From Lutibacter sp. B1 (GTDB lineage Bacteria > Bacteroidota > Bacteroidia > Flavobacteriales > Flavobacteriaceae), in NCBI RefSeq assembly GCF_012524075.1, contig NZ_JAAZUI010000003.1:1-64000 (forward strand): a DNA stretch of 64,000 nucleotides, read 5' to 3'. Below the pieces are notes generated by a model. It made no database searches. It saw only the letters and a program-made list of their open reading frames with translations, and was not told the DNA's origin. Position numbers and translations under genes: made by a program. Positions 16,935-49,494 of this stretch are shown piece after piece. Each line of letters opens with the position of its first letter. Position 1 is the first letter of the stretch.

Positions 16935-17672
16935 ATGCTACAAATATTGCTTGTGGATGATGAAAAAGATGCTTTAGAAGCATTGGAATGGAAATTGAAT
17001 AATTACATTGATAATGTGGAAGTTACAACCTGTAACTCTCCTGTAAAAGCTATTGATTTAATTAATGAGACTAAACCTGATGTGGTTTTTTTAGATATTC
17101 AAATGCCAGAAATGGATGGATTTACTATGATTGAAAAATTAGAAAATAGAGATTTTAATCTGATTTTTACTACAGCGCATGATGAATTTGCGCTTAAAGC
17201 AATTAAAGTTTCGGCTATTGATTATTTATTAAAACCGGTTGATAAGGATGAACTATTAGACGCAATGTCTAAAATAAAAAAATCTAAAAAAGGTGATTTT
17301 CTTGAAAATAAATTACAATTATTGCTAAATAATTTGAATGATAATCAAGATAAAATCAATATTTCTGCTGATGGTAAAGTGTATTTATTGGACAAAGATG
17401 ATGTTGTGATGTTAAAATCGGATAAAAGTTACACTACTATTTACTTAAAATCTGAACAAGAAATAGTGGTATCTAAAACATTGAAAGAAGTAGAAAAAAA
17501 ATTCTTATTTACTAATTTTTTTAGAGTTCATAATTCTTATTTGATAAACTTAAATCACGTAAAAGAATATTTGAAAGGTCTAGGAGGAGAACTTATTATG
17601 ACAAATGGTTTAACTGCTAGTATTAGTAGAAACAGAAAAGCGGAATTGTTTAAAAAACTTTATTTAGATTAA
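16935..17672 (+). CDS. LytTR-family response regulator
   Basis: A 245-residue regulator: an N-terminal receiver domain (VDDEKDALEAL, phospho-acceptor Asp in VVFLDIQMPEMDG, switch Thr in FTTAHDEFA, Lys in YLLKPVDKDEL) and a C-terminal LytTR DNA-binding domain (YLLDKDDVVMLKSDKSYTTI, FRVHNSYLINLNHVKEY, ISRNRKAEL). LytTR domains bind pairs of 9-bp direct repeats about 21 bp apart. The sensor gene begins three bases after the stop, so the two form an operon. Repeats fitting the LytTR consensus occur downstream at 19451-19501 and at 47739-47789. The promoter is unclear; TATCTTGC near 16899 is one base off TAnnTTTG. Confidence 0.95.
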   Translation: MLQILLVDDEKDALEALEWKLNNYIDNVEVTTCNSPVKAIDLINETKPDVVFLDIQMPEMDGFTMIEKLENRDFNLIFTTAHDEFALKAIKVSAIDYLLKPVDKDELLDAMSKIKKSKKGDFLENKLQLLLNNLNDNQDKINISADGKVYLLDKDDVVMLKSDKSYTTIYLKSEQEIVVSKTLKEVEKKFLFTNFFRVHNSYLINLNHVKEYLKGLGGELIMTNGLTASISRNRKAELFKKLYLD

Positions 17673-19001: not shown

Positions 19002-19010
19002 TCTTCAAAT

Positions 19011-19040
19011 TCCATTTATTCAAATAAGCTTACTGTTCGT
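19011..19040 (+). promoter_or_regulatory. Weak LytTR-like repeat pair
   Basis: TCCATTTAT (19011-19019) and ACTGTTCGT (19032-19040) start exactly 21 bp apart; each has one mismatch to the LytTR consensus [TA][AC][CA]GTTN[AG][TG]. They begin ten bases after the kinase stop and lie 53 bp before the -7 element of the 81-residue gene. A third site in register at 19053 is not recognisable. Alone this would be weak; it gains weight from the clearer arrays elsewhere. Confidence 0.3.
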
Positions 19041-19124: not shown

Positions 19125-19370
19125 ATGTCAATAATTAATTTTACAATACCTTCTGATGCTTCAATATTGAAAGATATCAATAATGTAATAGGAGAAAGAT
19201 TTATTAAGTTTATAGGGAGAGGAAGTGTATGCCAAAATATTCATGAAACAATTTATGTAAGAACATTCCAAGGTGATGATGAAATATTACGTAAAATTGT
19301 TTATCAAAAGAAAGGGACTAAATGGGTTTACCAAACAGTAGAGGTTATAAAATTGAAAAAATCTAGTTAA
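19125..19370 (+). CDS. Orphan small protein of unknown function
   Basis: An 81-residue soluble protein that I do not recognise. It has no signal peptide and no membrane segment, and its one Cys lies in RGSVCQN. The composition (charged, alternating strands such as IYVRTFQ, KIVYQKKG, WVYQTVEVIKLKK) suggests a small beta-rich domain. Evidence that it is real: its own ATG, a TAnnTTTG element at a normal distance, codon use like its neighbours, and no competing frame. It lies 123 bases after the LytTR sensor gene, behind a weak LytTR-like repeat pair, so it may be a target of that two-component system. No clear terminator follows. Confidence 0.6.
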   Translation: MSIINFTIPSDASILKDINNVIGERFIKFIGRGSVCQNIHETIYVRTFQGDDEILRKIVYQKKGTKWVYQTVEVIKLKKSS

Positions 19371-19450
19371 AATTCAGTATAAAACACTACAAAATAGGTT
19401 GATTAACCAATTAAAATACCAAAAAGCAATATTTTAAATAACTATAAATA

Positions 19451-19501
19451 TCCGTTTATTATTAAAATAATGCCATTTATAAATTATTTCTTCACGTTTG
19501 T
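19451..19501 (+). promoter_or_regulatory. LytTR-type direct-repeat array before the small RNA
   Basis: Three 9-bp units start at 19451 (TCCGTTTAT), 19472 (GCCATTTAT) and 19493 (CACGTTTGT), exactly 21 bp apart. Against the consensus [TA][AC][CA]GTTN[AG][TG] the first is a full match, the second has two mismatches and the third one. The array ends 32 bp before the TATATTTG -7 element and takes the place of a -33 box, as expected for an activator-dependent promoter. The LytTR regulator itself is encoded 2 kb upstream. Confidence 0.55.
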
Positions 19502-19533
19502 AAATTTCATCAAAAAGTAATCATTTTCAATAC

Positions 19534-19541
19534 TATATTTG
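19534..19541 (+). promoter_or_regulatory. TAnnTTTG -7 element of the candidate small RNA
   Basis: TATATTTG with no -33 TTTG upstream but with the 21-bp-periodic repeat array instead. The expected start is near 19547. Confidence 0.55.
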
Positions 19542-19546
19542 TTATG

Positions 19547-19660
19547 TATTAATGTCAAGAGGGGTTTTGGCACAGTACACAAAAACATTAAATAAGTCTT
19601 TGGGGTTGATTTATTTATTCCTTGAACATTGTAAGTATTATGATGTTCAAGGTTTTTTTT
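19547..19660 (+). ncRNA. Candidate structured small RNA (about 110 nt)
   Basis: Between the 81-residue gene and recO lies a complete small transcription unit with no reading frame. It has a TATATTTG promoter, then hairpin 1 (GTTTTG 19564-19569 with CAAAAAC 19580-19586), hairpin 2 (AAATAAGTC 19590-19598 with GATTTATTT 19608-19616, nine pairs with one G-U) and a strong terminator. The 5' part contains GTCAAGAGGGG. Length and lineage would be compatible with the Rfam 6S-Flavo family, but I could not check the covariance model, so identity stays open. It could instead be a regulatory RNA specific to the LytTR system next door. Confidence 0.55.
19620..19660 (+). terminator. Rho-independent terminator of the candidate small RNA
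   Basis: A perfect 10-bp stem (CCTTGAACAT 19620-19629, ATGTTCAAGG 19643-19652) with a 13-base loop runs into eight T. No coding gene ends nearby, which is the main argument that a separate RNA is made here. Confidence 0.85.
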
Positions 19661-19707
19661 GCTTCAAATTTCAATACCAATAACTATTTTTCTTTAGTAT
19701 TAATAAA

Positions 19708-19715
19708 TATATTTG
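19708..19715 (+). promoter_or_regulatory. TAnnTTTG -7 element of recO
   Basis: TATATTTG, 28 bases before the recO ATG and downstream of the small-RNA terminator, so recO has its own promoter. Confidence 0.6.
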
Positions 19716-19743
19716 AACAATCTGTAATGCTGATTATTTCAAT

Positions 19744-20460
19744 ATGATTGAAAACACAAAAGCAATAGTAATTAATACCATAAAATATGGAGACACAAGT
19801 TTAATTTCAACTTGCTATACTAAAAATTGCGGTATAAAAACATACATGCTTAAAGGTATTTTAAAATCAAAAAAATCAAAAATTAAATCGGCATATTTTC
19901 AACCTTTAATGCAACTTAATTTAACGGCTAACCATAACAATAAAGGAGCGTTAAACTCAATTAGAGATATTGAAATTGACCATTTTTATAATTCAATTTA
20001 TACCAATATAAAAAAACAAACCATTGCGCTTTTCTTAGCAGAAATACTATACTATGCTATAAAAGAAGAAGAGCAAAACCAATCTCTTTATGAATATTTA
20101 GAAACTTCATTTTTATGGTTAGATACACACGATAATGTTTCTAACTTTCATTTGCTTTTTCTTTTAAACTTGACCAAATTTTTAGGTTTTTATCCGGAAA
20201 TGAATTTACCTAACAGTAATTATTTTGATTTAATTGAAGGAAACTTTACTAATATTAATAATTTTAACTCAGTTTCAGGAGAGAATTTAGTTCAATTTAA
20301 AAAGCTGTTAGGCATAAATTTTGATGTGTTACATAAAATTGATTTTAGTGCCGAAAACAGGCAAACTATACTGTTCATTTTAATTCAGTATTTTGAATTA
20401 CATTTAAGCGGTTTTAAAAAACCAAAATCATTAAATGTCTTAAAATCGGTATTCAGCTAG
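19744..20460 (+). CDS. recO: DNA repair protein RecO
   Basis: RecO helps load RecA onto SSB-coated DNA in the RecFOR recombination pathway. At 238 residues it is of normal length. The N-terminal OB fold shows the family pattern TKAIVINTIKYGDTSLISTCYT and LKGILKSKKSKIK, followed by the alpha-helical C-terminal domain (LFLAEILYYAIKEEEQN, then LLFLLNLTKFLGFYPE). The four-cysteine zinc cluster found in some RecO proteins is absent. The TonB receptor gene starts two bases after the stop, a very tight arrangement that implies co-transcription despite unrelated functions. Confidence 0.92.
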   Translation: MIENTKAIVINTIKYGDTSLISTCYTKNCGIKTYMLKGILKSKKSKIKSAYFQPLMQLNLTANHNNKGALNSIRDIEIDHFYNSIYTNIKKQTIALFLAEILYYAIKEEEQNQSLYEYLETSFLWLDTHDNVSNFHLLFLLNLTKFLGFYPEMNLPNSNYFDLIEGNFTNINNFNSVSGENLVQFKKLLGINFDVLHKIDFSAENRQTILFILIQYFELHLSGFKKPKSLNVLKSVFS

Positions 20461-23080: not shown

Positions 23081-26000
23081 ATGATACTAAAATTACCCCA
23101 AATTAAAGTATCCTTTTTTGTACTTTTATTTATTTTTCCACTATATACTTTTTCTCAAATAAACATTTGGACAGAGGATTTTTCAACTTATGCTAATGGT
23201 ACAATAACAGGTACAGATGATAGATGGACATTAACAACAACTTCTGATGTTAATGGAACCGATGCAAATGACTATTTTAAAGTAGTATCTAATGAAATGC
23301 AAGCAAGAGACGTAAATGCTAATGAACAAATTTTTACTACGGAATTAATAGACATATCTGCATATACTAACATTGGCTTAAAAATAGATGTTTTTAAAGT
23401 TGGAGGGACAATGGAGTCAAACGACTATATTAAAGTTTATTACAAACTTGATGATGGTTCTGAAATATTGTTTACAGGTGGAGATAATTATGATGATTTT
23501 TCTGCTAAAACAGTAGCAGAAACAGGTTTAAATGGTTTAACAGTTCAAATTATAGTAAAAATCAAAAACGATGCTGATACCGAAATTTATGGATTTGATA
23601 CTATTATAGTTGAAGGAACACCTATAGAGCCTGAAATAAACGTTCAAGGTAATGGAATTGATATTTTAAACGGAAATACTTCAATTTCTAAAAATGATAA
23701 TACAGATTTTGGAATAATAAATGTATCATCTAGTGTTAGCAAAACTTTTATAATTCAAAATTTAGGAAGTTCAACATTAAATTTAACAGGAAATCCTATT
23801 GTTGAAATTAGCGGAGCTTCAGAATTCACTGTAATATCACAGCCAAGTTCAAGTTCAATTTCGGGTACAAGTAGTAGTAGTTTTGTAGTTGAATTTAGCC
23901 CTACAAGTGAAGGAACTTTTTCTGGCACTATAATTATCAATAATGATGATAGTGATGAATCAATTTATCAATTTTCCATACAGGCAAGTGCTGAGCAAAA
24001 CTTTTTTGATAGTGATGGTGATGGCATTTTTGATAATGTTGATATTGATGATGATAATGATGGTATTAGAGATGAAGAAGAAGAAAATACATGTAAAAAT
24101 TCTGCTATTTCTGTAACAGCAAATTATAAATTTTTAAACGAAACTTTTGGAACAGGAACAAATAGAACTACTATAGATACTAATTATGATACCATTACAA
24201 CGTATTGTTATGAAGACGGGACATCCGGTACAAATACAGCAACATGTTCTAGCTTATCAGATTACAGCCTTAATGATGGAGAATATACAGTAGGTTCTTC
24301 TACGCAAATAGCATCTTGGGCTTCAGAATATTGGTTTTTAGGAGGCGATCATACTGGTGATGTCAATGGTAGAATGGCAATTTTTAATGCTTCTTACGAT
24401 CCTGGAATATTTTATACCGCAACAATAAGTGGTGCACTTCCAAATGTACCTATTACGTATAGTTTTTGGGTATTAAATATTGATAGATCTGATGCTCCGG
24501 GTATTGAAAGCAGATTGAGACCTGATATTTTAGTTGAATTTAGAGATATTGATGATAATTTATTAGCTTCAATTACAACTGGAGATATTCCACCAACAAC
24601 AGCAGGGAATTTAGATGGAGATTGGTATCAATTTTCAGCTGATTTAACATTAAATGTTAATGAGTTTTATGTGTATTTTATTAATAATGAAACAGGAGGA
24701 TTAGGAAACGATTTAGCAATTGATGACATTGAAATAAGTCAAACATTATGTGATACAGATAGTGATGGAGTGGCCGATGTTTTTGATTTAGATTCAGATA
24801 ATGATGGTATTCCTGATGTTGTTGAAATTGGATTAGGAGATTATAGTGGAGGCACAGCTACACTTTCAGGAACTTGGGTTGATAATAATTCAAATGGTAT
24901 GCATGATCTTGCCGAAAGCCATACAGTTTTAGATTCTGATGGTGATGGAACTCCTAATTATTTAGATTTAGATAGTGATAATGATAGTATTTTTGATGTT
25001 GATGAATCAGGAGCGGGGAATTCAGCTGATGTCAATTTCCAAAACGGAGATGGAGATATTTCCGGAGATGGTGTTGGAGATGGAAGTGATACAGATTTGG
25101 TAAGAGAAACAGATATTAATTCTGATGGAATTTTAGAGTATTTTCCAGATGGAATTTTAGATATATATGATTATTATAATGGAAGTACATTTAATACAGC
25201 GTATGGGAATGAAAACCAAGGTGTTGGATTTACTTATTATGTTAAAGATACAGACAATGATGGTTTGCCGGATTATATTGATACAGATTCAAATAATGAC
25301 GAAAAATATGATATTGAAACAACATTATATGCAAATTTAGATACGGATTATGATGGTATAATTGACGACACTAATGATACAGACGGCGATGGTATTGTTG
25401 ATTTATTTGATACCGATGAAACAGTCTTTGGTTCGCCTAGGGATTTAGATGATAAATTTGCTCTTTATTTTGATGGAAGAAATGATTTTATTGAAGAAGA
25501 TGGTGAAGATATTGTGAATGGTCTTTCTGAAGCAACTATGATGGCTTGGGTTAAATTAGATTCCGATTTCTCTAATGATGGAGCCATAATGGGACAAAAT
25601 AATTTTTGGATTAGAATTAACGCCACAAAACGTTTAAGAGTTGAAATTAATGATCAATACCCTCTTACTGCACCGGATTCAACAATGTTATCATTAAATA
25701 TATGGACTCACGTAGCGGTGGTTTATAATGGTTCTGATACAGAGGAAACAGTAAAATTATATGTAAATGGAGAAAAAGTTGCTAGTAGAAATGAAGACAT
25801 TCAAGGAGGTATAAATACAAGTACAAATCAAAAATTTAGAATTGGCAGAACGCCATCAAGCTTATCTTTTGATACTGGTGAGATGTTTAAAGGAGAGATG
25901 GATGAATTACGAGTATTTAACAAAGCTTTATCAGATGAGGAGTTGCAAAAAATGGTCTACCAAGAGTTAGATGACACTAATAGTTTTAACAGGGGTGCAA

Positions 26001-28081
26001 TTATTCCATTAGATATATCTTCAACAATAGGATCTAATTTAATTAGATACTATAAAATGGATGTTTATAAAGATGACATTTTAGATAACAAAATAACTCC
26101 CTCACCTGATTTAACAGGAGCTAAAATATACAATGTTAAAAATATTTTTTATCAAACAGCACCATTACCTTTTGAAACAAAATCAAATGGTAATTGGTCT
26201 GATTCTGCTACATGGTTAAATGGAGACGTTTTGGATATTGCAGATGAAACAACTAATAAAAACTGGATTATTGCACACGTTAAAAATAATCTAACTACAT
26301 CATATCCTCATAGAACTGTTGGATTAATAGTAAATAATGGCTCAGAGCTTTCAATTCAAAGTAATCAACCTCTGTATAATTCATGGTATTTAGAATTAGA
26401 TGGTATTTTAGATTTAGAGGGAGAGTCACAATTAATACAAACAGAAGGCAGTATTTTAGATGCCGATAGCGGAGGATATATAGAACGAGATCAGCAAGGA
26501 ACTGCAAGCAGTTATAACTATAATTATTGGTCATCCTCAGTAAGTACAATCAATACAGCAGGTATAAGTACAAGAGGTACAGGAGTTTCAAGTGAAGGAA
26601 ATCAAACATATACTGTGAAAAGTATTCTATTAGATGGTACAGATTCGTTAAATCCTCTGGAAACAATAAATTTTAAATCGGAATATTATGCAGCAGATGG
26701 AGCAAAAACAAATCCGTTAACGCTTAGCACGTATTGGTTATGGAAATTTAATGGGACCAATAGTAATTATGGAGAATGGAAAAAGATTGATGAAAACACC
26801 GTTTTAGAAGCGGGAGAAGGCTATACAATGAAGGGAATTTCTGGTACAGCATCAATTACAGATGAGCAGAATTATGTATTTAAAGGAAGGCCCAATAACG
26901 GAACTATTACATTATCAATAGAGCTTAATAAAGATCGGTTAATAGGCAATCCGTATCCTTCAGTTATTGATGCAGATGAGTTTATAAAAGATAATATCAA
27001 AGATGGCGGAAGAGCATCAACTAACATAATAAATGGAGCAATCTATTTTTGGCATCATTTTGCAGGGAAAACACATTATTTATCGGGATATGAAGGGGGT
27101 TACGCTACATATACTTTAACAGGAGGTGTTCAAGCGTACGCAACTGATGAACGAATAAAAGCAACAGGTAATGGCGGAGGAAAGATACCAGAAAGATATA
27201 TTCCTTTAAACCAAGGATTTTTCGTTACAACAGCACTTAATGAATCATTAACGGCTATTACAACCGTAACAGGAGGCGATATAGTATTTAAAAACAGTCA
27301 AAGAGCGTTTAAATTAGAGGGAGAAACAGAGAATAATGATGGTTCATTATTTTTTAAAGGTTCAAAAAAAGCAAAAAGTTCTGAAACAACAGTAAATACA
27401 GATACACGCCAAAGAATATGGCTCTTATTTGATTCTCCAACAGGCTACCATCGCCAAATATTAGTTGGTACAGATGAAAATGCTACAAAAGAATTTGATT
27501 TAGGCTATGATGCAATAATGATTGATAAAGGTAATGAAGATATGTTTTGGTTAATAAACGAAGGTGAATTTGTAATACAAGGCATTGATAATTTTAATAA
27601 AGACCAAGAAATACCATTAGGGCTTGTAATTAGTGAAACCGGTTTAGCAAGAATAACAATAGATAAACTTGAGAACGTAGAAGAAAGTGAAGAAATTTAT
27701 ATAAAAGATAATACAACAGGAGAAACATATCAAATAAACGGACAGGATTTTGAAATAGAATTGGAAGCAGGAGAATATTTGGACAGATTTGCGTTAGTGT
27801 TTCAGCCACGTTTAAAAACCATTGAAGAAGTAGCCTTAGAAGAAGGTATCACATTATATATGGACAATCAAAGTTCAGAATTGTATGTAAAAAAGATTGT
27901 AGATACCACCATTACAGGAATAAGCGTATATAATTATTTAGGACAATCAATCAGTAATTTACAAAGTAATTTTAATCAAAGAGAGTTTTCAGTGCCTATA
28001 AGCAAAACCCCAACGGGAGTTTATGTGGTTCAGTTAACTACAGGAAATGGCAGCATTATAAAAAAGGTAGTTATTCAATAA
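23081..28081 (+). CDS. Giant T9SS surface protein with TSP3 repeats and LamG domain
   Basis: A 1666-residue secreted protein. It has a signal peptide (about residues 1-25), a HYDIN/choice-of-anchor-D-like beta domain (about 180-305), a series of calcium-binding thrombospondin type 3 repeats (DSDGDGIFDNVDIDDDNDG near 308, more between about 560 and 790) with a beta-sandwich module between them, a LamG/concanavalin-like domain (about 805-960), a long region ending in GNPYPSVIDADEF-type sequence, and a C-terminal type A T9SS domain (GISVYNYLGQSI, PTGVYVVQL, IIKKVVIQ). No catalytic motif is seen; adhesion or glycan binding is inferred. The next gene is a paralog over the C-terminal 500 or so residues. 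Confidence 0.88.
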   Translation: MILKLPQIKVSFFVLLFIFPLYTFSQINIWTEDFSTYANGTITGTDDRWTLTTTSDVNGTDANDYFKVVSNEMQARDVNANEQIFTTELIDISAYTNIGLKIDVFKVGGTMESNDYIKVYYKLDDGSEILFTGGDNYDDFSAKTVAETGLNGLTVQIIVKIKNDADTEIYGFDTIIVEGTPIEPEINVQGNGIDILNGNTSISKNDNTDFGIINVSSSVSKTFIIQNLGSSTLNLTGNPIVEISGASEFTVISQPSSSSISGTSSSSFVVEFSPTSEGTFSGTIIINNDDSDESIYQFSIQASAEQNFFDSDGDGIFDNVDIDDDNDGIRDEEEENTCKNSAISVTANYKFLNETFGTGTNRTTIDTNYDTITTYCYEDGTSGTNTATCSSLSDYSLNDGEYTVGSSTQIASWASEYWFLGGDHTGDVNGRMAIFNASYDPGIFYTATISGALPNVPITYSFWVLNIDRSDAPGIESRLRPDILVEFRDIDDNLLASITTGDIPPTTAGNLDGDWYQFSADLTLNVNEFYVYFINNETGGLGNDLAIDDIEISQTLCDTDSDGVADVFDLDSDNDGIPDVVEIGLGDYSGGTATLSGTWVDNNSNGMHDLAESHTVLDSDGDGTPNYLDLDSDNDSIFDVDESGAGNSADVNFQNGDGDISGDGVGDGSDTDLVRETDINSDGILEYFPDGILDIYDYYNGSTFNTAYGNENQGVGFTYYVKDTDNDGLPDYIDTDSNNDEKYDIETTLYANLDTDYDGIIDDTNDTDGDGIVDLFDTDETVFGSPRDLDDKFALYFDGRNDFIEEDGEDIVNGLSEATMMAWVKLDSDFSNDGAIMGQNNFWIRINATKRLRVEINDQYPLTAPDSTMLSLNIWTHVAVVYNGSDTEETVKLYVNGEKVASRNEDIQGGINTSTNQKFRIGRTPSSLSFDTGEMFKGEMDELRVFNKALSDEELQKMVYQELDDTNSFNRGAIIPLDISSTIGSNLIRYYKMDVYKDDILDNKITPSPDLTGAKIYNVKNIFYQTAPLPFETKSNGNWSDSATWLNGDVLDIADETTNKNWIIAHVKNNLTTSYPHRTVGLIVNNGSELSIQSNQPLYNSWYLELDGILDLEGESQLIQTEGSILDADSGGYIERDQQGTASSYNYNYWSSSVSTINTAGISTRGTGVSSEGNQTYTVKSILLDGTDSLNPLETINFKSEYYAADGAKTNPLTLSTYWLWKFNGTNSNYGEWKKIDENTVLEAGEGYTMKGISGTASITDEQNYVFKGRPNNGTITLSIELNKDRLIGNPYPSVIDADEFIKDNIKDGGRASTNIINGAIYFWHHFAGKTHYLSGYEGGYATYTLTGGVQAYATDERIKATGNGGGKIPERYIPLNQGFFVTTALNESLTAITTVTGGDIVFKNSQRAFKLEGETENNDGSLFFKGSKKAKSSETTVNTDTRQRIWLLFDSPTGYHRQILVGTDENATKEFDLGYDAIMIDKGNEDMFWLINEGEFVIQGIDNFNKDQEIPLGLVISETGLARITIDKLENVEESEEIYIKDNTTGETYQINGQDFEIELEAGEYLDRFALVFQPRLKTIEEVALEEGITLYMDNQSSELYVKKIVDTTITGISVYNYLGQSISNLQSNFNQREFSVPISKTPTGVYVVQLTTGNGSIIKKVVIQ

Positions 28082-28196: not shown

Positions 28197-31100
28197 ATGA
28201 GGATAATAGTACCCATATTAAAGTATATCACTAAAATACGATTTCAGTTACTATTTTTTGTTTTCTGTTTTATTGGTTTTAATTCTTTTTCGCAAACTAC
28301 CGTTATATATTCTGAAGATTTTGAATCTGGATTTGGTGGTTGGTCTAACACTCAAACCACCAATGGTGATTGGTTATTAGGAAATAATACAGCTCACTCT
28401 ACAGGAGCGTCTGGTAATTATTTTTACTCTGAAATGTATGAATTTACTGGGAGGCCTTGGTGGGTAAAATATTATTATTACAATAATGATACTTATGTAG
28501 TTGCTACAAGCCCAACTATAGATTTCACAGGATATTCTAATATCGTTTTTCAATTTGATATATGGTTTGATACTGAAGTAGATTGGGATGGCATGAAAGT
28601 GGAATATTCTTTGGATAATGGATTAAGTTGGTCTGATTTAGGAAGTGTAGCTAATACAAATTGGTATAATGATACAGATGTTGATGCGTTTAATAATGGT
28701 GAAGATGGTTGGTCTGGAGATAGTGGTGGTTGGGTTACCAAAAGTATCAACTTAAGTTTAGAAAATGGTGGATTTGATAATAATTCTCAAGTTAAATTTA
28801 GAATTCTTTTTGCTTCATCTGAAGCAGTGCAAGATACAGGAGTTGCTTTCGATAATATTATAATTGTATCAACTAAATATTGTTTATCTTATGGAAATGA
28901 TTCTGACGGTTATTATACAGGAATAAAACAGGTTAAGTTTAATACAATAGATAATAGTGAACCTGATGACGAAGATAATGACTATTCAGATTTTACAAGT
29001 CAATCTACAACTGTTTTACAAGGGTCTCCCTATGATTTAACGGTAAATGTTAATACAGATGGTAATTATACAGTAAATGTATTTGCTTGGATAGATTGGA
29101 ATCAAGATGGAGATTTTGATGATGTTAATGAAGAATATGATTTAGGCACTGCCAAAAATGTTAATAATGGTATTACTTCAAATTCTCCATATTCAATAAC
29201 AGTTCCTTTGTCAGCCTCTGTAGGCTCTACTATAATGAGAGTATCTGTAAAATGGGATATAGATGGTGCAGACCCAACAAGTTGTGAAAAAGGGTTTGAT
29301 GGTGAAGTTGAAGATTATACTATAAATATTGAAGCATATATACCTAGAATAGATTTTGATGGAACTGATGATTATGTTGATTTTGGGGATAATCATGATT
29401 TAACAGGTAATTTTTCAATAGAAGCTTGGGTTTTTCAGGAAGCAACTAATTCAAGTTCTAGATCTAATATGATTGTTACAAAAGGAACTTCCTCTACAAG
29501 TGTTACTTCTCGTTACTGGAGAGGATATTGTTTAGATATAGATTATAATAATTATCCACGATTTAGATGGTGGGATAATTCAGGAAATTTAATTATAGAT
29601 ATTACAACAACAAATGCAATAACAAATAATCAATGGCGTCATTTAGCAGTAACTTATGATGGAACAACAGCTACTTTGTATATAGACGGTATATCAGTTG
29701 GAAATGATACTTTTTCAGGGGCTTTAGTAAATAATAATTTTAATTTTATTATTGGGGCTATGTACTACAGTTACTCAAGTGTTGAAGCATTAGATTATTT
29801 CAACGGAGCCATTCAAGAAGTACGTATTTGGGATACAGCATTAAGCGAAGTTCAAATACGAGAAATGATGAACCAGCATATCGAAAATGATGTTGGGAAT
29901 GTAAAAGGAGAAATTATCCCATTACCAATTTCAGGAGGATTACAATGGAGTAATTTAAAAGGGTACTATCCTTTAATTAACAATACTGCAACAGATTATT
30001 CTGTTAACAGTATTAATGGTTCACCTAAAAATATTACAACACAACAGAAAATTACAGCGCCTTTACCTTATGTAGCTATCACAAATTCTGATTGGGATAC
30101 TGCAGGCACCTGGTTAAATAATGCAGATATTTACGTTCCAAATACAACTGGTATTGATGGAAGTACTTCTATTGATTGGAATATTGTGCACGTTACAGAA
30201 AATATGCAAAATGCTAGAGATATTACTGTATTAGGTCTGCTTGTTGATGCGGATAAAGAATTAGAAGTGGATGGAAATACCGGTACAAATACAGGGTATA
30301 GTTTAACAGTAACCAATTATTTAAAATTAGATGGTGTTATTGATTTAGAAGGAGAATCACAATTAATACAAATAGAAGGAAGTGTATTGGATGATACAAG
30401 TAGCGGATATATAGAAAGGGACCAACAAGGAGAAGGAAACAGGTATAGATACAACTATTGGTGTTCTCCGGTAATACAAACAGGAACACCATCAGGTTCA
30501 TCTTTCACAATTGCAAGTGTTTTAAAAGACGGTACATATACAAATACGCCTAAAGATATTTCTTTTATATCTGGTTATGATGGTGCTCCTGCTACAGCTT
30601 CACTACCAATTCAAATTGCAAATTATTGGTTATACAAATTTGTTAATAGAACAGCAGGGGATTATAGCCAATGGTTACAAATAGGTAGTACAGGATCTTT
30701 AAATGCAGGTGAAGGATTTACAATGAAAGGGCCCAGCGATCCGGGACCACCTTCACCTGACCAAAATTATGTATTTGTAGGTAAGCCCAATAATGGAGAT
30801 ATTGAATTAAATATAACTTCAGGCAATAATTATCTGGTAGGTAATCCATATCCGTCAGCGTTAGATGCAGATCAATTTATAGATGATAATACTTCAATAA
30901 GTGGTACTCTATATTTTTGGGAACATTATGGTGGAGATAGTCACTATTTAGCAGATTATGAAGGCTCTTATGCAACTTATACTAAGTCAGGAGCAACACC
31001 GGCACCAACACCTAGTGGTATAACACCTAAAACTCCAGAGCGATACATCCCTGTAGGTCAAGGATTTTTTGTGTATTCCGATGTAGATGATAAAATTAAG

Positions 31101-31898
31101 TTTAATAATGGCCAACGTATTTTTGTAACTGAAGCAAATCCTGATAATTCTATTTTTATGAAAGAGGTCACATCAAAAAAAGCAAGCGTTGTCAAAAATA
31201 AAAATGTTGTTATTACTGATACTCGACAAAAAATTAGAATAGGTTTTGGAGCTTCAAAAACCGGGCATAGGCAATTATTATTAACCGTAGATGATAGAAC
31301 AACTGATTTAGCAGATTGGGGATTTGATGGAGAAATATATGGTTTGTTACCTGAAGATATGTTTTGGATAATAGATGATAAAAAATATGTAATTCAAGGA
31401 TTACCGGATTTAAATATAGATAGAGAAATACCATTGGGAATTATAATTGATGAAGATGGTTTAATATCAATAAAAATTGATAAACTTGAGAATATAGAAG
31501 AAAGTAAGAAGTTATATATTAAAGATAATTTAACAGGCGAAACATATCAAATAAACAAACAATCTTTTGAAATAGAATTGGAAGCAGGAGAGTATTTGGA
31601 CAGATTTTCTTTGGTTTTTCAACCACGTTTAAAAACATTAGAAGAAATAAAGTTAGAGCAAGGGTTTAGTATATTTACACATAAATCACAATATGCGGTA
31701 CAGGTTAAAAAAATAATTGATGCCGAAATTTTAAGTATAAATTTATATAACATATACGGTCGTATGGTACAAACTTGGGAAGGAGATTTAGGAGGAAGAC
31801 ATTTATTATTACCTATTAGAAAAACCACTACAGGAGTTTATATTGTACAATTAAACACTGCTAATGGAACTTTTGAAAAAAAGATTATTATTGAATAG
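28197..31898 (+). CDS. Giant T9SS surface protein with GEVEDY and LamG domains
   Basis: A 1233-residue secreted protein, paralog of the gene before it. The signal peptide is long (about residues 1-32). Then come a beta-sandwich with Trp-rich stretches (about 35-230), a GEVEDY domain (WIDWNQDGDFDD to GEVEDYTINI, about 295-380), a LamG domain (about 385-560), and the region shared with the neighbour from DLEGESQLIQ to the end, including IELEAGEYLDRF and VFQPRLKT. It ends in a type A T9SS domain (INLYNIYGRMVQ, TTGVYIVQL, FEKKIIIE). No enzymatic motif is visible. No TAnnTTTG lies in the 115-base gap, so co-transcription with the first gene is likely. Confidence 0.88.
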   Translation: MRIIVPILKYITKIRFQLLFFVFCFIGFNSFSQTTVIYSEDFESGFGGWSNTQTTNGDWLLGNNTAHSTGASGNYFYSEMYEFTGRPWWVKYYYYNNDTYVVATSPTIDFTGYSNIVFQFDIWFDTEVDWDGMKVEYSLDNGLSWSDLGSVANTNWYNDTDVDAFNNGEDGWSGDSGGWVTKSINLSLENGGFDNNSQVKFRILFASSEAVQDTGVAFDNIIIVSTKYCLSYGNDSDGYYTGIKQVKFNTIDNSEPDDEDNDYSDFTSQSTTVLQGSPYDLTVNVNTDGNYTVNVFAWIDWNQDGDFDDVNEEYDLGTAKNVNNGITSNSPYSITVPLSASVGSTIMRVSVKWDIDGADPTSCEKGFDGEVEDYTINIEAYIPRIDFDGTDDYVDFGDNHDLTGNFSIEAWVFQEATNSSSRSNMIVTKGTSSTSVTSRYWRGYCLDIDYNNYPRFRWWDNSGNLIIDITTTNAITNNQWRHLAVTYDGTTATLYIDGISVGNDTFSGALVNNNFNFIIGAMYYSYSSVEALDYFNGAIQEVRIWDTALSEVQIREMMNQHIENDVGNVKGEIIPLPISGGLQWSNLKGYYPLINNTATDYSVNSINGSPKNITTQQKITAPLPYVAITNSDWDTAGTWLNNADIYVPNTTGIDGSTSIDWNIVHVTENMQNARDITVLGLLVDADKELEVDGNTGTNTGYSLTVTNYLKLDGVIDLEGESQLIQIEGSVLDDTSSGYIERDQQGEGNRYRYNYWCSPVIQTGTPSGSSFTIASVLKDGTYTNTPKDISFISGYDGAPATASLPIQIANYWLYKFVNRTAGDYSQWLQIGSTGSLNAGEGFTMKGPSDPGPPSPDQNYVFVGKPNNGDIELNITSGNNYLVGNPYPSALDADQFIDDNTSISGTLYFWEHYGGDSHYLADYEGSYATYTKSGATPAPTPSGITPKTPERYIPVGQGFFVYSDVDDKIKFNNGQRIFVTEANPDNSIFMKEVTSKKASVVKNKNVVITDTRQKIRIGFGASKTGHRQLLLTVDDRTTDLADWGFDGEIYGLLPEDMFWIIDDKKYVIQGLPDLNIDREIPLGIIIDEDGLISIKIDKLENIEESKKLYIKDNLTGETYQINKQSFEIELEAGEYLDRFSLVFQPRLKTLEEIKLEQGFSIFTHKSQYAVQVKKIIDAEILSINLYNIYGRMVQTWEGDLGGRHLLLPIRKTTTGVYIVQLNTANGTFEKKIIIE

Positions 31899-44184: not shown

Positions 44185-47100
44185 TTATTCTTTAACTATT
44201 TTGGTTATTATAGATTTTTGTCCGTCATTAACTTCTAAGAAATAAACATCAGGCTTTAAATTTGAAATATTAATGCTTTCTTTATTCCCTTTTCCTGTTT
44301 TTACAACCTGTCCAAGCCTGTTAGAAATTTTGTAGCTCAAATTTTCTTTTTTGTTGAACTTAATTTGAATAGTTTCGGTTGTTGGGTTAGGATATACATT
44401 TAAGTCGGAACCTATTTCAAAACCTAAATCTTCAGAAGGAATAAAAGCTAAAGACGAATTATAATTAACAGTTGTACTGCTAATATTTACAGTATAATCT
44501 TCAACTTCTCCGTAAGTAAATGTTTCGCAAGCAGTTTGAGAAGAATTATATTTCATTGAAACACGCATTCTGGTTTGTCCGCTTACTGCATCTGAAGGAA
44601 TTGTAATATCTGCTGATAAATTTCCTGAACTTGATGAAGATCCTGTAACCATTTTTTCGGCATCGGCAAATGTTCCATCTTGGTTAAAGTCAATCCATAC
44701 AGCCCAATATTCTGTGTAAGAAGAGCTTCTAAAACCTGCACTTATTATAATTTCATTGGTAGTTCCTTTTGCTACAGTTGCAACACTAGATGTATAATCA
44801 GCATAACCACCATCATTACCTGTAGTATTTGTCATCCCTCCAAAAGAAACATAATCAATCCATTCATAAGAAGAATTATTTCCTTTAGAATCACAATAAG
44901 TAATTTGGTTATTTAATGTTGTTACACTCACAGCATTACTGGTATTAGATACATTTCCTGCATCATCTTTAGCTTTAATTGTGAAGCTATAAGTAGTTGC
45001 AGCTGTTAAACCTGTAACTTGATATGTAGTTGTTGTAACTGAGGTTAATAAACTGGTTCCCTGATAGACATCGTAGCTGGTAACAGCCACATTATCTGTA
45101 GCACCACTCCATGATAGATCAACTGTAGTATTTGTTGTATTACTTGCTGTTAAAGTTGGTGCTGTTGGAGCTTGAGTATCTGGAGCTAATGTTGTTACAG
45201 AAACCGTATTGCTGCTTTCAGAAATATTTCCGGCTTCATCTTTTGCTTTAACTGTAAAGCTATAAGATGTATCTGCAGATAAATTTGTAACCTGGTATGA
45301 TGTACCTGTAATAGAAGTTAATAAAGTAGTTCCTTGATAAACATCATATCCCGTAACACCTACATTATCTGTAGCACCACTCCAAGATAAATCAACTGTA
45401 GTCTGTGTAATATTGCTTGATGTTAAAGTAGGAGCAGTAGGCGCTTCTGTATCAGGAGCACCCGTACCTAAAACAACGGTATAATCTTCAACTTCACCAT
45501 AAGAAAAAGATTCGCAAGCTGTTGGAATTGCGTTGTATTTCATAGATACCCTCATTGTTGTGCTTCCTGTTATAGCACTGGTTGGTACTGTAAAAGTTCC
45601 ACTAACAGGTGTTGTTTTTGAAGCTGCATTTGTCCACACTTGTTCTTCTGAATCATCAAAATCACCATCTTTATTATAATCTATCCAAACACTATAACCT
45701 TCACTGTAAACTGTACCGGTCCAAGTTGGTGTAATAGTAATAGTATAGGTATCACCTTTTACTAAATCTGTAGAAATAGAGGTATAATCTGTATAACCGC
45801 TTGATGCTCCTGTACTATTATCAATAGTTCCTAGCTGTACACGACCAATATATTCGTCACTTACACTATTTCCTGCAGAAGTACAATACTCTATAGAAGT
45901 ATCTCCATATTCTTTACCAACACCCACAGCGTAAAAAGCATTGGTAGTGGCAATAACTTCTGCTGAATCTGCGCCGTATAAATCTTCTGCAGATTGAATA
46001 CCAGATGTTCTTGCTTCAGCATAAGTTGAATTTGCTGATAAATAAAGGCTTTCTAATCTAAATGCAATTTGTGCAGCTTTGTCAATTCCAATACCGGTTA
46101 CATTGTAAGAACTTCCAATATCATTAGTTCCAGATTTTCCTTCCGATAAAATATAAAACCAATGATTTAACACTCCTGAATTGGTATGTACACCACAATA
46201 ATCGTTACTAGAGCTAGGAGTACAATTTACATCAACCCAATTAGTACCTCCATAGGTATCTGGCTGCCCTTCATCTTTAGGGTTGCTCATAGATCTTAGA
46301 GCAACACTTGTTGTTCTTCTTTCAATATCTTCACCAATTAACCATATATCTTTTTCAGGAGCAGCGTAAGCTTCTACACAAGCAGCCCAAATATCAGAAA
46401 AGGCTTCATTCATAGCTCCGGATTCTTTTTGATAAGCTAAATCTGCAGTATTTGTACATACTGCATGACCAATTTCATGTGCAGCTACATCTAATGATGT
46501 TAAAATATCAAAATAACCATCACCAACAGTTCCGTCAGAGCTACCATCACCGTAAGTCATTCTTGATCCATCCCAAAAAGCATTGTCATAAGCAGTATCA
46601 TAATGCACATAACTATTAATAGTTGCACCGGCATCATCAAAACTGTTTCTTCCGTGTTTATCTTGCCAATAATCATAAGTCATTTCCGCACCCCAATGTG
46701 CGTCTAATGCGCCATTGTCTTTGGCAGTGTTATCCCATTCTGCTGCAGTCCAATTATTATCATTATCACTAAAATCAACAGCAGAGCTATAATTGGTACC
46801 TTCATTCATATCATAAGTTTTAATACCATTGCCTCGGGTAATATCACTTAAAATATAACTACCACTGCTTGAAGATGTTTCAATGGTTTTTGTGCCGCTA
46901 TATCTTGTGGCAGCATTTCCCGCAGTTAATAATTTATCGGCACTTTTAGCTTTGGTTACTTTAGAGTAGTATTCTTCAAAATCTATTCCTAATAAATTAT
47001 CAGCATGTTTGATAATGGCATTATAAAATAAAATTTCACCATTTTGAGCATCAACATAAACAAATCCTCTACTTATTGGTTTTGTTGCATAAATATCGAA

Positions 47101-47652
47101 TTTATAAGCTAACTTATTTTCTTTTTTATCAATAATGTAACCTGGTAAAATTACCAATTCGCCTTTTGGTTTATCATATTTTATAAGTTTAGCGTTTTTG
47201 GTTTCTTGCCATAAATAAGATGAAGCACCAATGTGAGAAATTGCTTTTTGAAATGCAGTTGCTTCTGAAAGACTTGGTTTGGTGTTTAAATTTTCAATTT
47301 GATAAAATTCACCGGAAATAGATTTTATTTCTCCATTTTTACTGTGAACAATTGGGGTAGCAAAATCAACTTTTACATTGTTGTAAAATTGTTGGTGTTT
47401 TTCGTGAGTAAAACCTAGTTTATCTTTTTTACTTTTAGTGAAAACTATATTATCTTCACTTTTAAGATTTAATTGTTCTTTAAATAAAAGATCTTTTTGA
47501 TTGGTTTTGTAAACCTTATCTATTTTTTTCTTTAAAGAATTAGGTTTGGCATTGAGTTTTGGTTCTTTTTTTTGCGCGTTGATTTGCCCTATAAATAAGG
47601 AAAAAACAACAAAAAAAACAGCAAAACTTTTTTTGGAGTAGTTTTTTTTCAT
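44185..47652 (-). CDS. T9SS-secreted M4 (thermolysin-like) metalloprotease
   Basis: A 1155-residue secreted protease. It has a signal peptide (about 1-26), an FTP/PepSY propeptide (about 50-190), the M4 catalytic domain with zinc motif AAHEIGHAV, third ligand Glu in GAMNEAFSD and the C-terminal GVLNHWFYILSEG segment, a first GEVEDY domain (WIDYNKDGDFDD to GEVEDYTVVL), two nearly identical fibronectin type III domains (each TVDLSWSGATDNV), a second GEVEDY domain, and a C-terminal type A T9SS domain (NVYPNPTTETIQI to IITKIVKE). It probably degrades extracellular protein for nutrition. It is divergent from the peptide ABC gene across a LytTR-like repeat array. Confidence 0.94.
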   Translation of the reverse strand: MKKNYSKKSFAVFFVVFSLFIGQINAQKKEPKLNAKPNSLKKKIDKVYKTNQKDLLFKEQLNLKSEDNIVFTKSKKDKLGFTHEKHQQFYNNVKVDFATPIVHSKNGEIKSISGEFYQIENLNTKPSLSEATAFQKAISHIGASSYLWQETKNAKLIKYDKPKGELVILPGYIIDKKENKLAYKFDIYATKPISRGFVYVDAQNGEILFYNAIIKHADNLLGIDFEEYYSKVTKAKSADKLLTAGNAATRYSGTKTIETSSSSGSYILSDITRGNGIKTYDMNEGTNYSSAVDFSDNDNNWTAAEWDNTAKDNGALDAHWGAEMTYDYWQDKHGRNSFDDAGATINSYVHYDTAYDNAFWDGSRMTYGDGSSDGTVGDGYFDILTSLDVAAHEIGHAVCTNTADLAYQKESGAMNEAFSDIWAACVEAYAAPEKDIWLIGEDIERRTTSVALRSMSNPKDEGQPDTYGGTNWVDVNCTPSSSNDYCGVHTNSGVLNHWFYILSEGKSGTNDIGSSYNVTGIGIDKAAQIAFRLESLYLSANSTYAEARTSGIQSAEDLYGADSAEVIATTNAFYAVGVGKEYGDTSIEYCTSAGNSVSDEYIGRVQLGTIDNSTGASSGYTDYTSISTDLVKGDTYTITITPTWTGTVYSEGYSVWIDYNKDGDFDDSEEQVWTNAASKTTPVSGTFTVPTSAITGSTTMRVSMKYNAIPTACESFSYGEVEDYTVVLGTGAPDTEAPTAPTLTSSNITQTTVDLSWSGATDNVGVTGYDVYQGTTLLTSITGTSYQVTNLSADTSYSFTVKAKDEAGNISESSNTVSVTTLAPDTQAPTAPTLTASNTTNTTVDLSWSGATDNVAVTSYDVYQGTSLLTSVTTTTYQVTGLTAATTYSFTIKAKDDAGNVSNTSNAVSVTTLNNQITYCDSKGNNSSYEWIDYVSFGGMTNTTGNDGGYADYTSSVATVAKGTTNEIIISAGFRSSSYTEYWAVWIDFNQDGTFADAEKMVTGSSSSSGNLSADITIPSDAVSGQTRMRVSMKYNSSQTACETFTYGEVEDYTVNISSTTVNYNSSLAFIPSEDLGFEIGSDLNVYPNPTTETIQIKFNKKENLSYKISNRLGQVVKTGKGNKESINISNLKPDVYFLEVNDGQKSIITKIVKE

Positions 47653-47738
47653 ATGAATTTAATTTTGGGGTTTTGGTTATAAAAACATTAAATATGTGTC
47701 GAAGATATTAAAAAAATGTTAAAAAACTATAAAAACAT

Positions 47739-47789
47739 ACCGTTTATATAAAAAAACATACCGTTTGTTTAAAAAATCATACAGTTTAA
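47739..47789 (+). promoter_or_regulatory. LytTR-type direct-repeat array before the peptide ABC gene
   Basis: Three repeats start at 47739 (ACCGTTTAT), 47760 (ACCGTTTGT) and 47781 (ACAGTTTAA), exactly 21 bp apart, each preceded by CAT. The first two match the LytTR consensus [TA][AC][CA]GTTN[AG][TG] fully; the third differs at the last base. The second ends 31 bp and the third 10 bp before the TACTTTTG -7 element. They lie 87-137 bp upstream of the divergent M4 protease start, so both genes could be controlled. Confidence 0.65.
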
Positions 47790-47799
47790 TTAAATTAAT

Positions 47800-47807
47800 T
47801 ACTTTTG
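47800..47807 (+). promoter_or_regulatory. TAnnTTTG -7 element of the peptide ABC gene
   Basis: TACTTTTG ends four bases before the ATG at 47812, so the transcript is predicted to be leaderless or nearly so. There is no -33 TTTG; the repeat array takes that place. Confidence 0.55.
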
Positions 47808-47811
47808 ATAT

Positions 47812-49494
47812 ATGAGTATAATTCTTAATGTAAAAGACCTTTCAGTTTCTTTTAAAACTGACGATAATTACAATAAAGTTGTTAAAGGGGTTTCTTATAT
47901 TGTTAATGAAAATGAGATTTTAGGAATTGTTGGTGAATCGGGTAGTGGAAAGTCAGTTTCATCATTGGCTATTTTAGGACTTTTGCCTAAAAGTACTTTG
48001 GTTGAAGGAGAAATTATTTTTAAAGATATTTTATTAACCAAAGTTACAGGCAAGCAATTTAAAAAAATTAGAGGCAATCAAATTTCTATGATTTTTCAAG
48101 AACCAATGAGTTCTTTAAATCCCAGTTTAACATGTGGTTATCAAGTATTAGAAATTTTACTTCAGCATAAAAAAATATCAAAAAAAGAAGCAAAAAAAGA
48201 GGTAATTGAATTGTTTAAAAAAGTAAAGTTGCCTAGAGCCGAAACTATTTTTAATCATTACCCACATCAAATTTCGGGCGGACAAAAACAACGTGTTATG
48301 ATAGCGATGGCTATAGCTTGCAAACCTCAAATTTTAATTGCTGATGAGCCTACAACTGCTTTAGATGTTACCGTTCAAAAAGAAATTATTTTATTATTGA
48401 AAGAATTGCAGCAAGAAACAAATATGAGCATCATTTTTATTACTCACGATTTGGCTTTGGTTTCTGAAATTGCAGATAGAGTTTTAGTAATGAAACAAGG
48501 AGAAATTGTTGAGCAAGGTACTTCAACAGAGTTATTTAAAAATCCACAACATAATTACACAAAAGCACTTATAAATTCAAAGCCCAATTTAAATTTCAGA
48601 TTAAAAAAGCTGCCAACTGTACAGAATTTTATGGAGCAAACTATTAATAATGAAGTTTATACTGAGGAGGAAAGAAACAATTTTCATTCAAAAATATACG
48701 CAAAAGAACCTTTGTTGGAAGTAAAAAATTTAGCTACATATTTTGGTAAAGAAAGCAATTGGTTTTTTGAAAAAGAACAGCTGGTAAAAGCAGTAGATAA
48801 TGTTTCGTTTCAACTGTTTGAAGGTGAAACATTGGGTTTGGTTGGCGAATCGGGTTGTGGAAAAACCACGTTAGGCCGTACAATTTTACATTTAGAAAAA
48901 GCTACTAAAGGAGAGCTGTTTTATAAACAAAAAGACGTAACAAATCTTTCAAATAAAGAATTAAAAGATTTCAGAAAAGAAGTTCAAATAATTTTTCAAG
49001 ATCCATTTTCTTCTTTAAATCCTAGAATTCCTGTTGGTAAAGCCATTATGGAACCAATGAAAGTACACGGAATTTTAAATTCTAAAGAAGAACGAAAGCA
49101 ATATGTTTTAGAAATTTTACAACGTGTTGGCTTAAATGAAGAATATTTTTACCGCTATCCACACGAATTTTCAGGCGGGCAACGTCAACGAATTGGTATT
49201 GCGCGTACCATAGCTTTAAAGCCTAAATTAATTATTTGTGACGAATCTGTTTCGGCATTAGACGTTTCGGTTCAAGCTCAAGTTTTAAATTTGTTGAACG
49301 AGTTAAAACAGGATTTTGGTTTTACGTATATTTTTATTTCGCACGATTTGTCTGTTGTAAAATATATGTCTGATCAACTTATGGTAATGAATAATGGTAA
49401 AATTGAAGAAATTGGTGATGCTGATGAGGTTTACAAAAATCCAAAATCAAGCTATTCTAAAAAATTAATTGATGCTATTCCTAAAGGAATTTAA
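47812..49494 (+). CDS. Dipeptide/oligopeptide-type ABC transporter, fused double ATPase
   Basis: A 560-residue protein made of two complete ABC ATPases of the oligopeptide/nickel type in tandem (DppD-DppF fusion, as in YejF or GsiA). Domain 1: Walker A GESGSGKS, Q-loop MIFQEPMSSLNPSL, signature ISGGQKQR, Walker B ILIADEPTTALDVT. Domain 2: GESGCGKT, IIFQDPFSSLNPRI, FSGGQRQR, LIICDESVSALDVS. Both end with the family tail (KNPQHNYTKALI, KNPKSSYSKKLI). No permease or binding protein is adjacent, so partners must be encoded elsewhere. Adjacent control with a secreted protease would fit peptide uptake. Confidence 0.93.
   Translation: MSIILNVKDLSVSFKTDDNYNKVVKGVSYIVNENEILGIVGESGSGKSVSSLAILGLLPKSTLVEGEIIFKDILLTKVTGKQFKKIRGNQISMIFQEPMSSLNPSLTCGYQVLEILLQHKKISKKEAKKEVIELFKKVKLPRAETIFNHYPHQISGGQKQRVMIAMAIACKPQILIADEPTTALDVTVQKEIILLLKELQQETNMSIIFITHDLALVSEIADRVLVMKQGEIVEQGTSTELFKNPQHNYTKALINSKPNLNFRLKKLPTVQNFMEQTINNEVYTEEERNNFHSKIYAKEPLLEVKNLATYFGKESNWFFEKEQLVKAVDNVSFQLFEGETLGLVGESGCGKTTLGRTILHLEKATKGELFYKQKDVTNLSNKELKDFRKEVQIIFQDPFSSLNPRIPVGKAIMEPMKVHGILNSKEERKQYVLEILQRVGLNEEYFYRYPHEFSGGQRQRIGIARTIALKPKLIICDESVSALDVSVQAQVLNLLNELKQDFGFTYIFISHDLSVVKYMSDQLMVMNNGKIEEIGDADEVYKNPKSSYSKKLIDAIPKGI

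Follow-up and report, generated by a model that had tools for sequence, protein, structure and literature searches.

We analysed a window of 64,000 nt, taken from contig C129 of a 3.42-Mb draft genome of Lutibacter (label G000). Between two divergent genes in this window lies an array of short direct repeats, which a first-pass annotation had read as a LytTR-type operator and as a switch coupling a secreted protease to peptide uptake. The locus raises the question of which gene the array serves, which regulator would read it, and whether the same signal is used elsewhere.

The array and the gene it probably serves

The array (47738–47789, minus strand) consisted of three repeats of 21 bp, with 10-mers at 47738–47747, 47759–47768, and 47780–47789. 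The 9-mers listed in the first-pass annotation, ACCGTTTAT (47739–47747), ACCGTTTGT (47760–47768), and ACAGTTTAA (47781–47789), were recovered at the same coordinates, with an exact period of 21 bp and 12-bp spacers; read toward the protease gene, they form AYAAAYGGTA-like units. TRF reported repetition of the whole 21-bp unit (2.8 copies, 86% match, score 88). The first two repeats fitted the LytTR consensus quoted in that annotation in full and the third at eight of nine positions. A genome-wide scan for pairs, which the annotation had proposed as a check, showed no enrichment of this degenerate consensus (eight places, compared with 12 when the pattern was reversed); a match to it is therefore no proof in itself. 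Pairs of ACMGTTTRW with 10–14 bp between them were found in the G000 genome at one place only, the window array. TACCGTTTRT followed by ACCGTTTRT at 1–30 bp was matched six times in 397 Flavobacteriaceae genomes; four of these matches, which came from three genera and included the window, had exactly the window spacing. An ACMGTTTRW pair scan at 21–22 bp in the 397 genomes was rejected as evidence because it was too noisy (26 places versus 18 for the reversed control).

The E. coli BtsR (YehT) oligonucleotide printed in Table 1 of PMC4847170 carries ACCGCTTA and ACCACTCA 21 bp apart, with N13 between them. As far as the available text of that source goes, the likeness to this site lies in the 21-bp period, in G or A at position 4, and in an A-rich stretch ahead of the second repeat; the counterpart of the site here is ACC(G/A)TTT(A/G) repeated 21 bp apart with an A-tract. 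The same text gives at least two direct repeats of 9–11 nt with 11–13 bp between them as the form of such operators, and the window has three 9-mers with 12-bp spacers. The resemblance in period, spacer, and A-tract, together with the conservation of the array across genera and its preferred distances to −7 boxes (described below), supports the window array as a candidate LytTR-type operator, as first proposed.

Both flanking genes had been identified correctly, as judged by their Pfam domains. The first (44185–47652, minus strand; M4, Por_Secre_tail) encodes an M4 metalloprotease with fn3, GEVED, and T9SS sorting domains, and its promoter has a −7 box, TATCTTCG (47700–47707, minus strand; 5/6 positions), 30 bp from the proximal repeat. 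The second (47812–49494, plus strand; ABC_tran, oligo_HPY) encodes a fused dipeptide-type ABC ATPase (GsiA/YejF-like). Its −7 box, TACTTTTG (47800–47807, plus strand), was present as described, and by eye there was no TTTG at −33 spacing before it, again as described. This box-less −33 region belongs to the ABC side, whereas the conserved partner of the array is on the protease side.

Near full-length protease orthologues (75–78% identity) were found in three other Lutibacter genomes (G012, G027, and G007). Those of G012 (L197) and G027 (L198) were preceded by arrays of two or three repeats, oriented as in the window and likewise 29–30 bp from a −7-like box, and that of G007 (L196) by a single good repeat. 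This check covered the three closest orthologues; more distant M4 homologues (42–57% identity) occur in other Lutibacter genomes. Upstream of ABC orthologues (22 Lutibacter loci, seven genomes of other families, and 80 named loci, with overlap in a few genomes), no comparable array was found; scattered weaker pairs were present in 15 of the ABC loci. Conservation before orthologous genes thus held for the protease (two of its three closest Lutibacter orthologues) and not for the ABC gene (none of the other orthologues examined). Because the array recurs before protease orthologues and is absent before the other ABC orthologues examined, we assigned it to the protease: it is the putative LytTR-type operator of the divergent M4/T9SS protease gene. 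A conserved role at the ABC side, and with it a conserved form of the protease/peptide-uptake switch proposed in the first-pass annotation, was not supported.

Control of both genes by the one array, as a switch, is unlikely. The array does lie between the two promoters, the gap from its second repeat to the ABC −7 box is 31 bp, similar to that in other array promoters, and the ABC side has no −33 box by eye. An M4 homologue (49–54% identity) also stands opposite the ABC gene in three of the 80 named loci (L037, L054, and L091, all in other genera), so the neighbourhood itself recurs; however, it does so without the array, which was absent upstream of these three ABC genes despite the M4 homologue facing them. 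Among the Lutibacter loci read, the protease adjoined the ABC gene in the window only; of the 22 others, 14 had an ABC-F gene opposite the ABC gene within the 1.5 kb read. The third repeat would, moreover, overlap the −33 region of the ABC promoter. In this species alone, the array may have an effect on the ABC gene.

Several further features of the two genes were recorded. The ABC −7 box and the start codon are 4 bp apart (window 47800–47814), and the message would therefore be leaderless or nearly so; leaderless mRNAs make up 5.5% of those mapped in F. psychrophilum according to the available text of PMC9723704. The protease gene contains a tandem duplication of 273 bp (window 44914–45459), the two copies of which are 77% alike. 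A palindrome, TACGG-n-CCGTA, was located 37–93 bp before the start of the ABC match in 16 of the 80 named ABC loci (L045, L060, L062, L066, L070, L075, L076, L077, L081, L094, L095, L097, L098, and three more), of 30 occurrences in the 1031 kb of these 80 loci; it was absent from the four Lutibacter loci among them. It is an operator different from the array.

Putative array-controlled genes and their candidate LytTR regulator

We refined the motif to TACCRTTTRT-N11-TACCRTTTRT with an A-tract. With the A-tract, it occurred at 54 places in 30 of the 397 Flavobacteriaceae genomes, compared with eight for the reversed control; the sample included three Lutibacter genomes, which accounted for 16 places, and the other 38 were outside Lutibacter. 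A relaxed pair (at most three mismatches) was found at 321 places in 38 Lutibacter genomes, compared with 215 for the reversed control. As the control counts were above zero, single weak sites are unreliable. In the neighbourhoods read, the unit in the direction of the target gene was ATAAAYGGTA-nGTTTTT-nnnn. Genes behind the arrays encoded CAP-domain lipoproteins, leucine-rich repeat (LRR) proteins, proteins with T9SS sorting domains, a hybrid histidine kinase, and the M4 protease. The best further array places in G000 preceded genes for a CAP lipoprotein (L229) and an LRR protein (L228). Intergenic matches L131, L137, and L144 were dropped on inspection, as was a match adjoining a LytTR gene in G030 (L142/L194), which resembled terminator hairpins.

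The distance from the proximal repeat to a −7-like box was determined for 33 gene instances from Lutibacter neighbourhoods among the matches listed. It fell at 29–32 bp in 14 and at 40–41 bp in 12, i.e., in two classes one helical turn apart that together took in 26 of the 33, in a search that favoured boxes near 35 bp; five boxes were otherwise placed and two were not found. Since these loci were motif-selected and many are mutual orthologues, counts of array genes are not independent. Preferred promoter distances are hard to reconcile with a tandem duplication of AT-rich spacer DNA that has no function, as is the preservation of the repeat cores, across genera and before orthologous genes, between spacers that vary. 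Whole 21-bp units do repeat in the array and the window has other 21-bp tandem repeats, but we regard this origin as extremely unlikely. Taken as an operator, the refined motif marks a predicted regulon of secreted proteins in this marine group. The first-pass statement that no described LytTR regulon of this kind was known in Flavobacteriaceae agrees with the open-licence literature (titles and abstract openings), where no LytTR regulon of the family was found.

The candidate binder proposed earlier is a LytTR response regulator (16935–17672, plus strand) encoded directly before a 7TMR-DISM histidine kinase (17676–19001, plus strand). It is one of nine LytTR proteins in G000, and its best NCBIfam model is BtsR, for which it scored 153.7 bits, below the equivalog cut-off of 246. 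Orthologues were present in 36 of the 38 Lutibacter genomes, window included, the 35 others at 88–95% identity; the two without it are incomplete (62% and 86%). Neither G004, one of these two, nor the regulator-bearing G028 appeared among the matches listed in the relaxed-pair scan. Across the family, orthologues with at least 60% identity were detected in 16 of the 397 genomes. The array was present in 12 of these 16 versus 18 of the 381 others (Fisher p-value 5e-12), and in nine of 13 regulator genomes after removal of Lutibacter (5e-9), both values being computed on genomes as independent and uncorrected for relatedness. The refined-motif scan found no array in the remaining four of the 16. 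Thirteen regulator-negative genomes had a refined-motif place that was not assigned to a position before a LytTR gene, against a reversed control of eight places.

In five genomes of other genera (L308, L313, L316, L320, and L321), the array preceded a gene for a LytTR response regulator at a distance of approximately 220–350 bp (Pfam domains were read for one of the five, L320). Among the nine G000 LytTR proteins, the closest to these array-preceded regulators was that at 16935–17672 (40–42% identity, 179–188 bits), followed by scores of 100–110. It also formed a clade with them in a tree that placed the seven other included LytTR proteins of G000 elsewhere, and for which the program warned of long branches. 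This pattern suggests a second BtsR-like LytTR subfamily that would regulate itself via a common DNA code.

By its co-occurrence with the array across genomes, the arrays adjoining its operon, and the array upstream of the gene of a related LytTR regulator in five other genomes, the regulator at 16935–17672 stands as the best candidate. The window array is probably bound by it, after phosphorylation by the neighbouring kinase. LytTR proteins are not alone in having direct repeats spaced by close to 22 bp, and OmpR/PhoB-type regulators, for example, use direct repeats too; with LytTR binding predicted from sequence, the array could serve a regulator of another such family. We consider this very unlikely, as arrays adjoin the LytTR operon in Lutibacter, precede a LytTR gene in the five other genomes, and co-occur with orthologues of the regulator at 16935–17672. 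The array also matches the form of the BtsR site, ACCGCTTA-N13-ACCACTCA (in the available text of PMC4847170), and BtsR is the best NCBIfam model of this very regulator.

A conserved putative RNA beside the regulator operon and its complementarity to leaders

Arrays recurred just downstream of the regulator–kinase operon, followed by a TATATTTG-like box and an unannotated stretch of approximately 110 bp that was far better conserved than its flanks. In the window, the corresponding features were a weak array (19450–19501, plus strand; three mismatches per pair), a −7 box TATATTTG (19534–19541, plus strand), and a putative small RNA (19548–19661, plus strand) with hairpin 1 (19553–19572, GGGG at the loop), hairpin 2 (19589–19617, loop UUUGGGGUU), and a terminator from 19620. 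Another weak array (19010–19040, plus strand; three mismatches) lies directly 3′ of the kinase gene and before an 81-aa ORF (19125–19370, plus strand). This ORF, which thus sits between the kinase and the small RNA with its own weak array, has relatives at the equivalent place in G008 and G020 and no match in Pfam or NCBIfam.

The RNA was present in all 33 readable Lutibacter neighbourhoods (32 others and the window, all extending beyond the kinase gene); outside this set were G028, where the contig ends first, G026, G005, and the regulator-less G016 and G004. It was also present in G296 and G062. A covariance model built on 17 sequences, including one copy each from G171 and G367, located relatives at the equivalent place in G171 and G367 (two copies each), G092, G061, and G295. 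The model did not find the RNA in G411, G239, G371, G177, or the 400-kb sample of G012, and its best E-value in the 400-kb sample of the control G366 was 0.086. A pair with at most three mismatches preceded the RNA in 28 of the 32 other Lutibacter loci and was missing in four. The array-to-RNA distance was 108–109 bp in 27 of these 28, 87 bp in one, and 109 bp in the window, unlike the kinase-to-array distance, which varied from 18 to 556 bp.

The predicted fold had a z-score of −4.1 and comprised a terminator and two hairpins, whose GGGG stretches lie in or at the loop. In the alignment (the G009 row of which is without the 5′ part), all 326 pair cells of the structure were standard pairs, compared with 29–53% when the structure was slid. 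Pair cells changed on both sides numbered seven versus 2.1 in shuffles; two of the five covariation measures did not exceed shuffles (such pairs, three versus 1.8; further pair types, nine versus 8.8). Rfam gave no match above the gathering score in the whole window, and an E-value search of 19380–19760 gave seven matches, all far below gathering scores.

Complementarity between the RNA and the leaders of array-controlled genes was assessed next to control leaders. CCCC was present in 26 and GGGG in none of the 33 array-gene leaders among the matches listed; seven were without CCCC. The RNA core UUUGGGGUUGAUUUAUUUAUU complements leader stretches such as AATAAATAAATCAACCCC before CAP genes. Unbroken complementarity of at least 12 nt was found for 13 of the 33 array leaders among the matches listed versus three of 325 control leaders from the G012 sample, and the longest stretch was 19 nt (G009 CAP gene) versus 12 nt in control leaders. 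Duplex energy separated the two sets less (p-value 0.004). A duplex z-score of −2 or lower (40 shuffles each) was obtained for 12 of the 33 array leaders among the matches listed: seven of 15 CAP, two of three T9SS-protein, two of three protease, one of nine LRR, and none of three other leaders. LRR-gene leaders were thus mostly unremarkable. The 13-mer AATAAATCAACCC was found in eight of the 15 CAP leaders (L285, which is not a CAP gene, was left out), in no other array-controlled leader, and nowhere in the 400-kb samples of G012 and G366.

The protease leader of the window contains a stretch complementary to the RNA (47666–47700, minus strand), with predicted pairing of 10 bp (CCAAAACCCC, 47667–47676) and 14 bp (TATTTAATGTTTTT, 47681–47694) and a predicted energy of −31.2 versus −17.2 for shuffles (z −4.0). 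The G027 RNA carries U in place of C within the 14-bp part, and the protease leader of that genome is changed to match (z −3.5), although the stretch is AT-rich. No pairing was predicted for the G012 protease leader (z +1.1). Pairing is best supported, on these predictions, for the CAP lipoprotein genes, two T9SS-protein genes, and the window protease.

A genome-wide CCCC leader code was rejected. In an even 400-kb sample of G012, CCCC leaders belonged to six of 70 signal-peptide-like genes versus none of 143 others (p-value 0.001), but the control G366 had no such bias (two of 54 versus six of 152), and the code therefore covers at most a subset of secreted genes. Signal-peptide-like genes were called by a rough rule of our own, and sampled leaders were 70 nt long versus up to 150 nt for array-controlled leaders. 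In the regulator neighbourhoods of other genera, CCCC leaders were not linked to signal-peptide-like genes (none of nine versus three of 48). Two large T9SS-sorted proteins of the window (23081–28081 and 28197–31898) have CCCC in their leaders; no array was found upstream of these genes and their predicted pairing with the RNA was unremarkable.

A porZ-like (T9SS) gene follows the RNA in L261, L273, L282, and L294 (PorZ being named for L261), and recO follows it in the window and G008. The conserved stretch could be an attenuator or 5′ leader belonging to whichever gene comes next (porZ or recO) instead of an RNA acting in trans; in the four porZ loci the gene starts some 230–250 bp after the array. 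This seems quite unlikely to us: the next gene varies, the RNA closes with a terminator hairpin that shows covariation and precedes a T run, and its unbroken complementarity is to unlinked messages.

A proposed circuit and related systems

We consider it probable that these parts form one system, a LytTR operator with a regulon of secreted proteins and a co-controlled pairing RNA, joined in a feed-forward loop. The proposal builds on anatomy, conservation, co-occurrence, and complementarity, which were observed here. The 7TMR-DISM kinase would read a signal and phosphorylate the LytTR regulator, which would bind the direct repeats on one face of the DNA with the proximal edge approximately 30 or 40 bp before the −7 box, as expected of an activator site. 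It would then activate the −7 promoters of the protease and of further secreted and surface protein genes, and would drive the RNA of approximately 110 nt from the promoter just downstream of its own operon. GGGG-bearing loops of the RNA would initiate pairing with CCCC in the 5′ leaders of co-controlled messages (some of them, and not most LRR messages), and pairing would extend from this GGGG/CCCC start up to 19 nt. One signal would thus act on target transcription and on the pairing RNA, a feed-forward loop on secreted proteins. Binding, activation, expression of the RNA, and pairing in the cell with its effect are predicted steps of this model. Neither the regulon nor the small RNA was recognisable from the array by itself. 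If the model is true, the locus names a switch, an operator, an RNA, and targets together, and a testable pairing rule would be available for bacteria that start translation without Shine–Dalgarno signals.

Control of RNAs by LytTR regulators is known from Firmicutes: in AgrA–RNAIII of Staphylococcus and VirR–VR-RNA of Clostridium perfringens, a two-component LytTR regulator drives an RNA that affects secreted proteins. The layout found here is alike, with a LytTR two-component pair, an RNA, and secreted-protein targets, and the agr-like anatomy extends to an adjacent RNA gene carrying the regulator's type of operator, through which it would be controlled. The likeness is one of layout; the phylum and the RNA are different, and here GGGG loops face CCCC leaders. 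No peptide signal was found in the two neighbours scanned for AgrB/AgrD, 19125–19370 (no family match) and 19744–20460 (RecO). Whether the locus is a Bacteroidota counterpart of the AgrA–RNAIII design that arose independently, we judge to be nearly an even call, tipping toward no. In this reading, a LytTR system would drive secreted-protein genes and an adjacent RNA, the GGGG loops of the RNA would recognise a CCCC code in the leaders of messages that lack Shine–Dalgarno sequences, and a single signal would exert joint transcriptional and post-transcriptional control over type IX and lipoprotein secretion. The LRR leaders and the other genera, which are without the leader code, take weight from it.

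VR-RNA is a precedent for a stabilising effect on targets, and by analogy with it and with Rfp18, a small RNA of F. psychrophilum, such an effect is weakly favoured for the RNA described here. In the available text of PMC9723704, Rfp18 has a strong predicted structure and predicted pairing to metalloprotease messages, and its loss lowers the mRNA of two metalloproteases; the family is reported there to lack Shine–Dalgarno sequences. The two RNAs are likened by this description only, as flavobacterial, structured, and directed at metalloprotease messages, and they differ in that no regulator is reported for Rfp18 in that text. Repression of the targets, which would make the feed-forward loop incoherent, has somewhat short of an even chance. 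In its favour, the predicted pairing in the window reaches to approximately 14 nt before the protease start codon; the lowered protease mRNA upon loss of Rfp18 (available text of PMC9723704) speaks against it if Rfp18 is a fair analogue. In the open-licence literature (titles and abstract openings), no regulator of a protease-controlling RNA in Flavobacteriaceae was named, and the array and RNA locus may bear on how RNAs, e.g., Rfp18, tune flavobacterial proteases.

The E. coli BtsR system differs from the one proposed here in having two repeats and a transporter gene as its target (available text of PMC4847170), compared with two to three repeats, secreted proteins, and a small RNA. The kinase here is, moreover, of the 7TMR-DISM type, and the NCBIfam score of the regulator is below the cut-off. 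In LytTR Regulatory Systems (LRS), including LRS-like operons of Bacteroides, the regulator is paired with a membrane protein, and the available text of PMC6193735 describes no small RNA; the Bacteroides repeats, TCCGG(T/C)ATTCA-11-ACCG(G/T)AAATCA, are also different. What the LRS of that text share with the arrays described here is LytTR-type direct repeats with 11–13 bp spacers upstream of promoters, and autoregulation.
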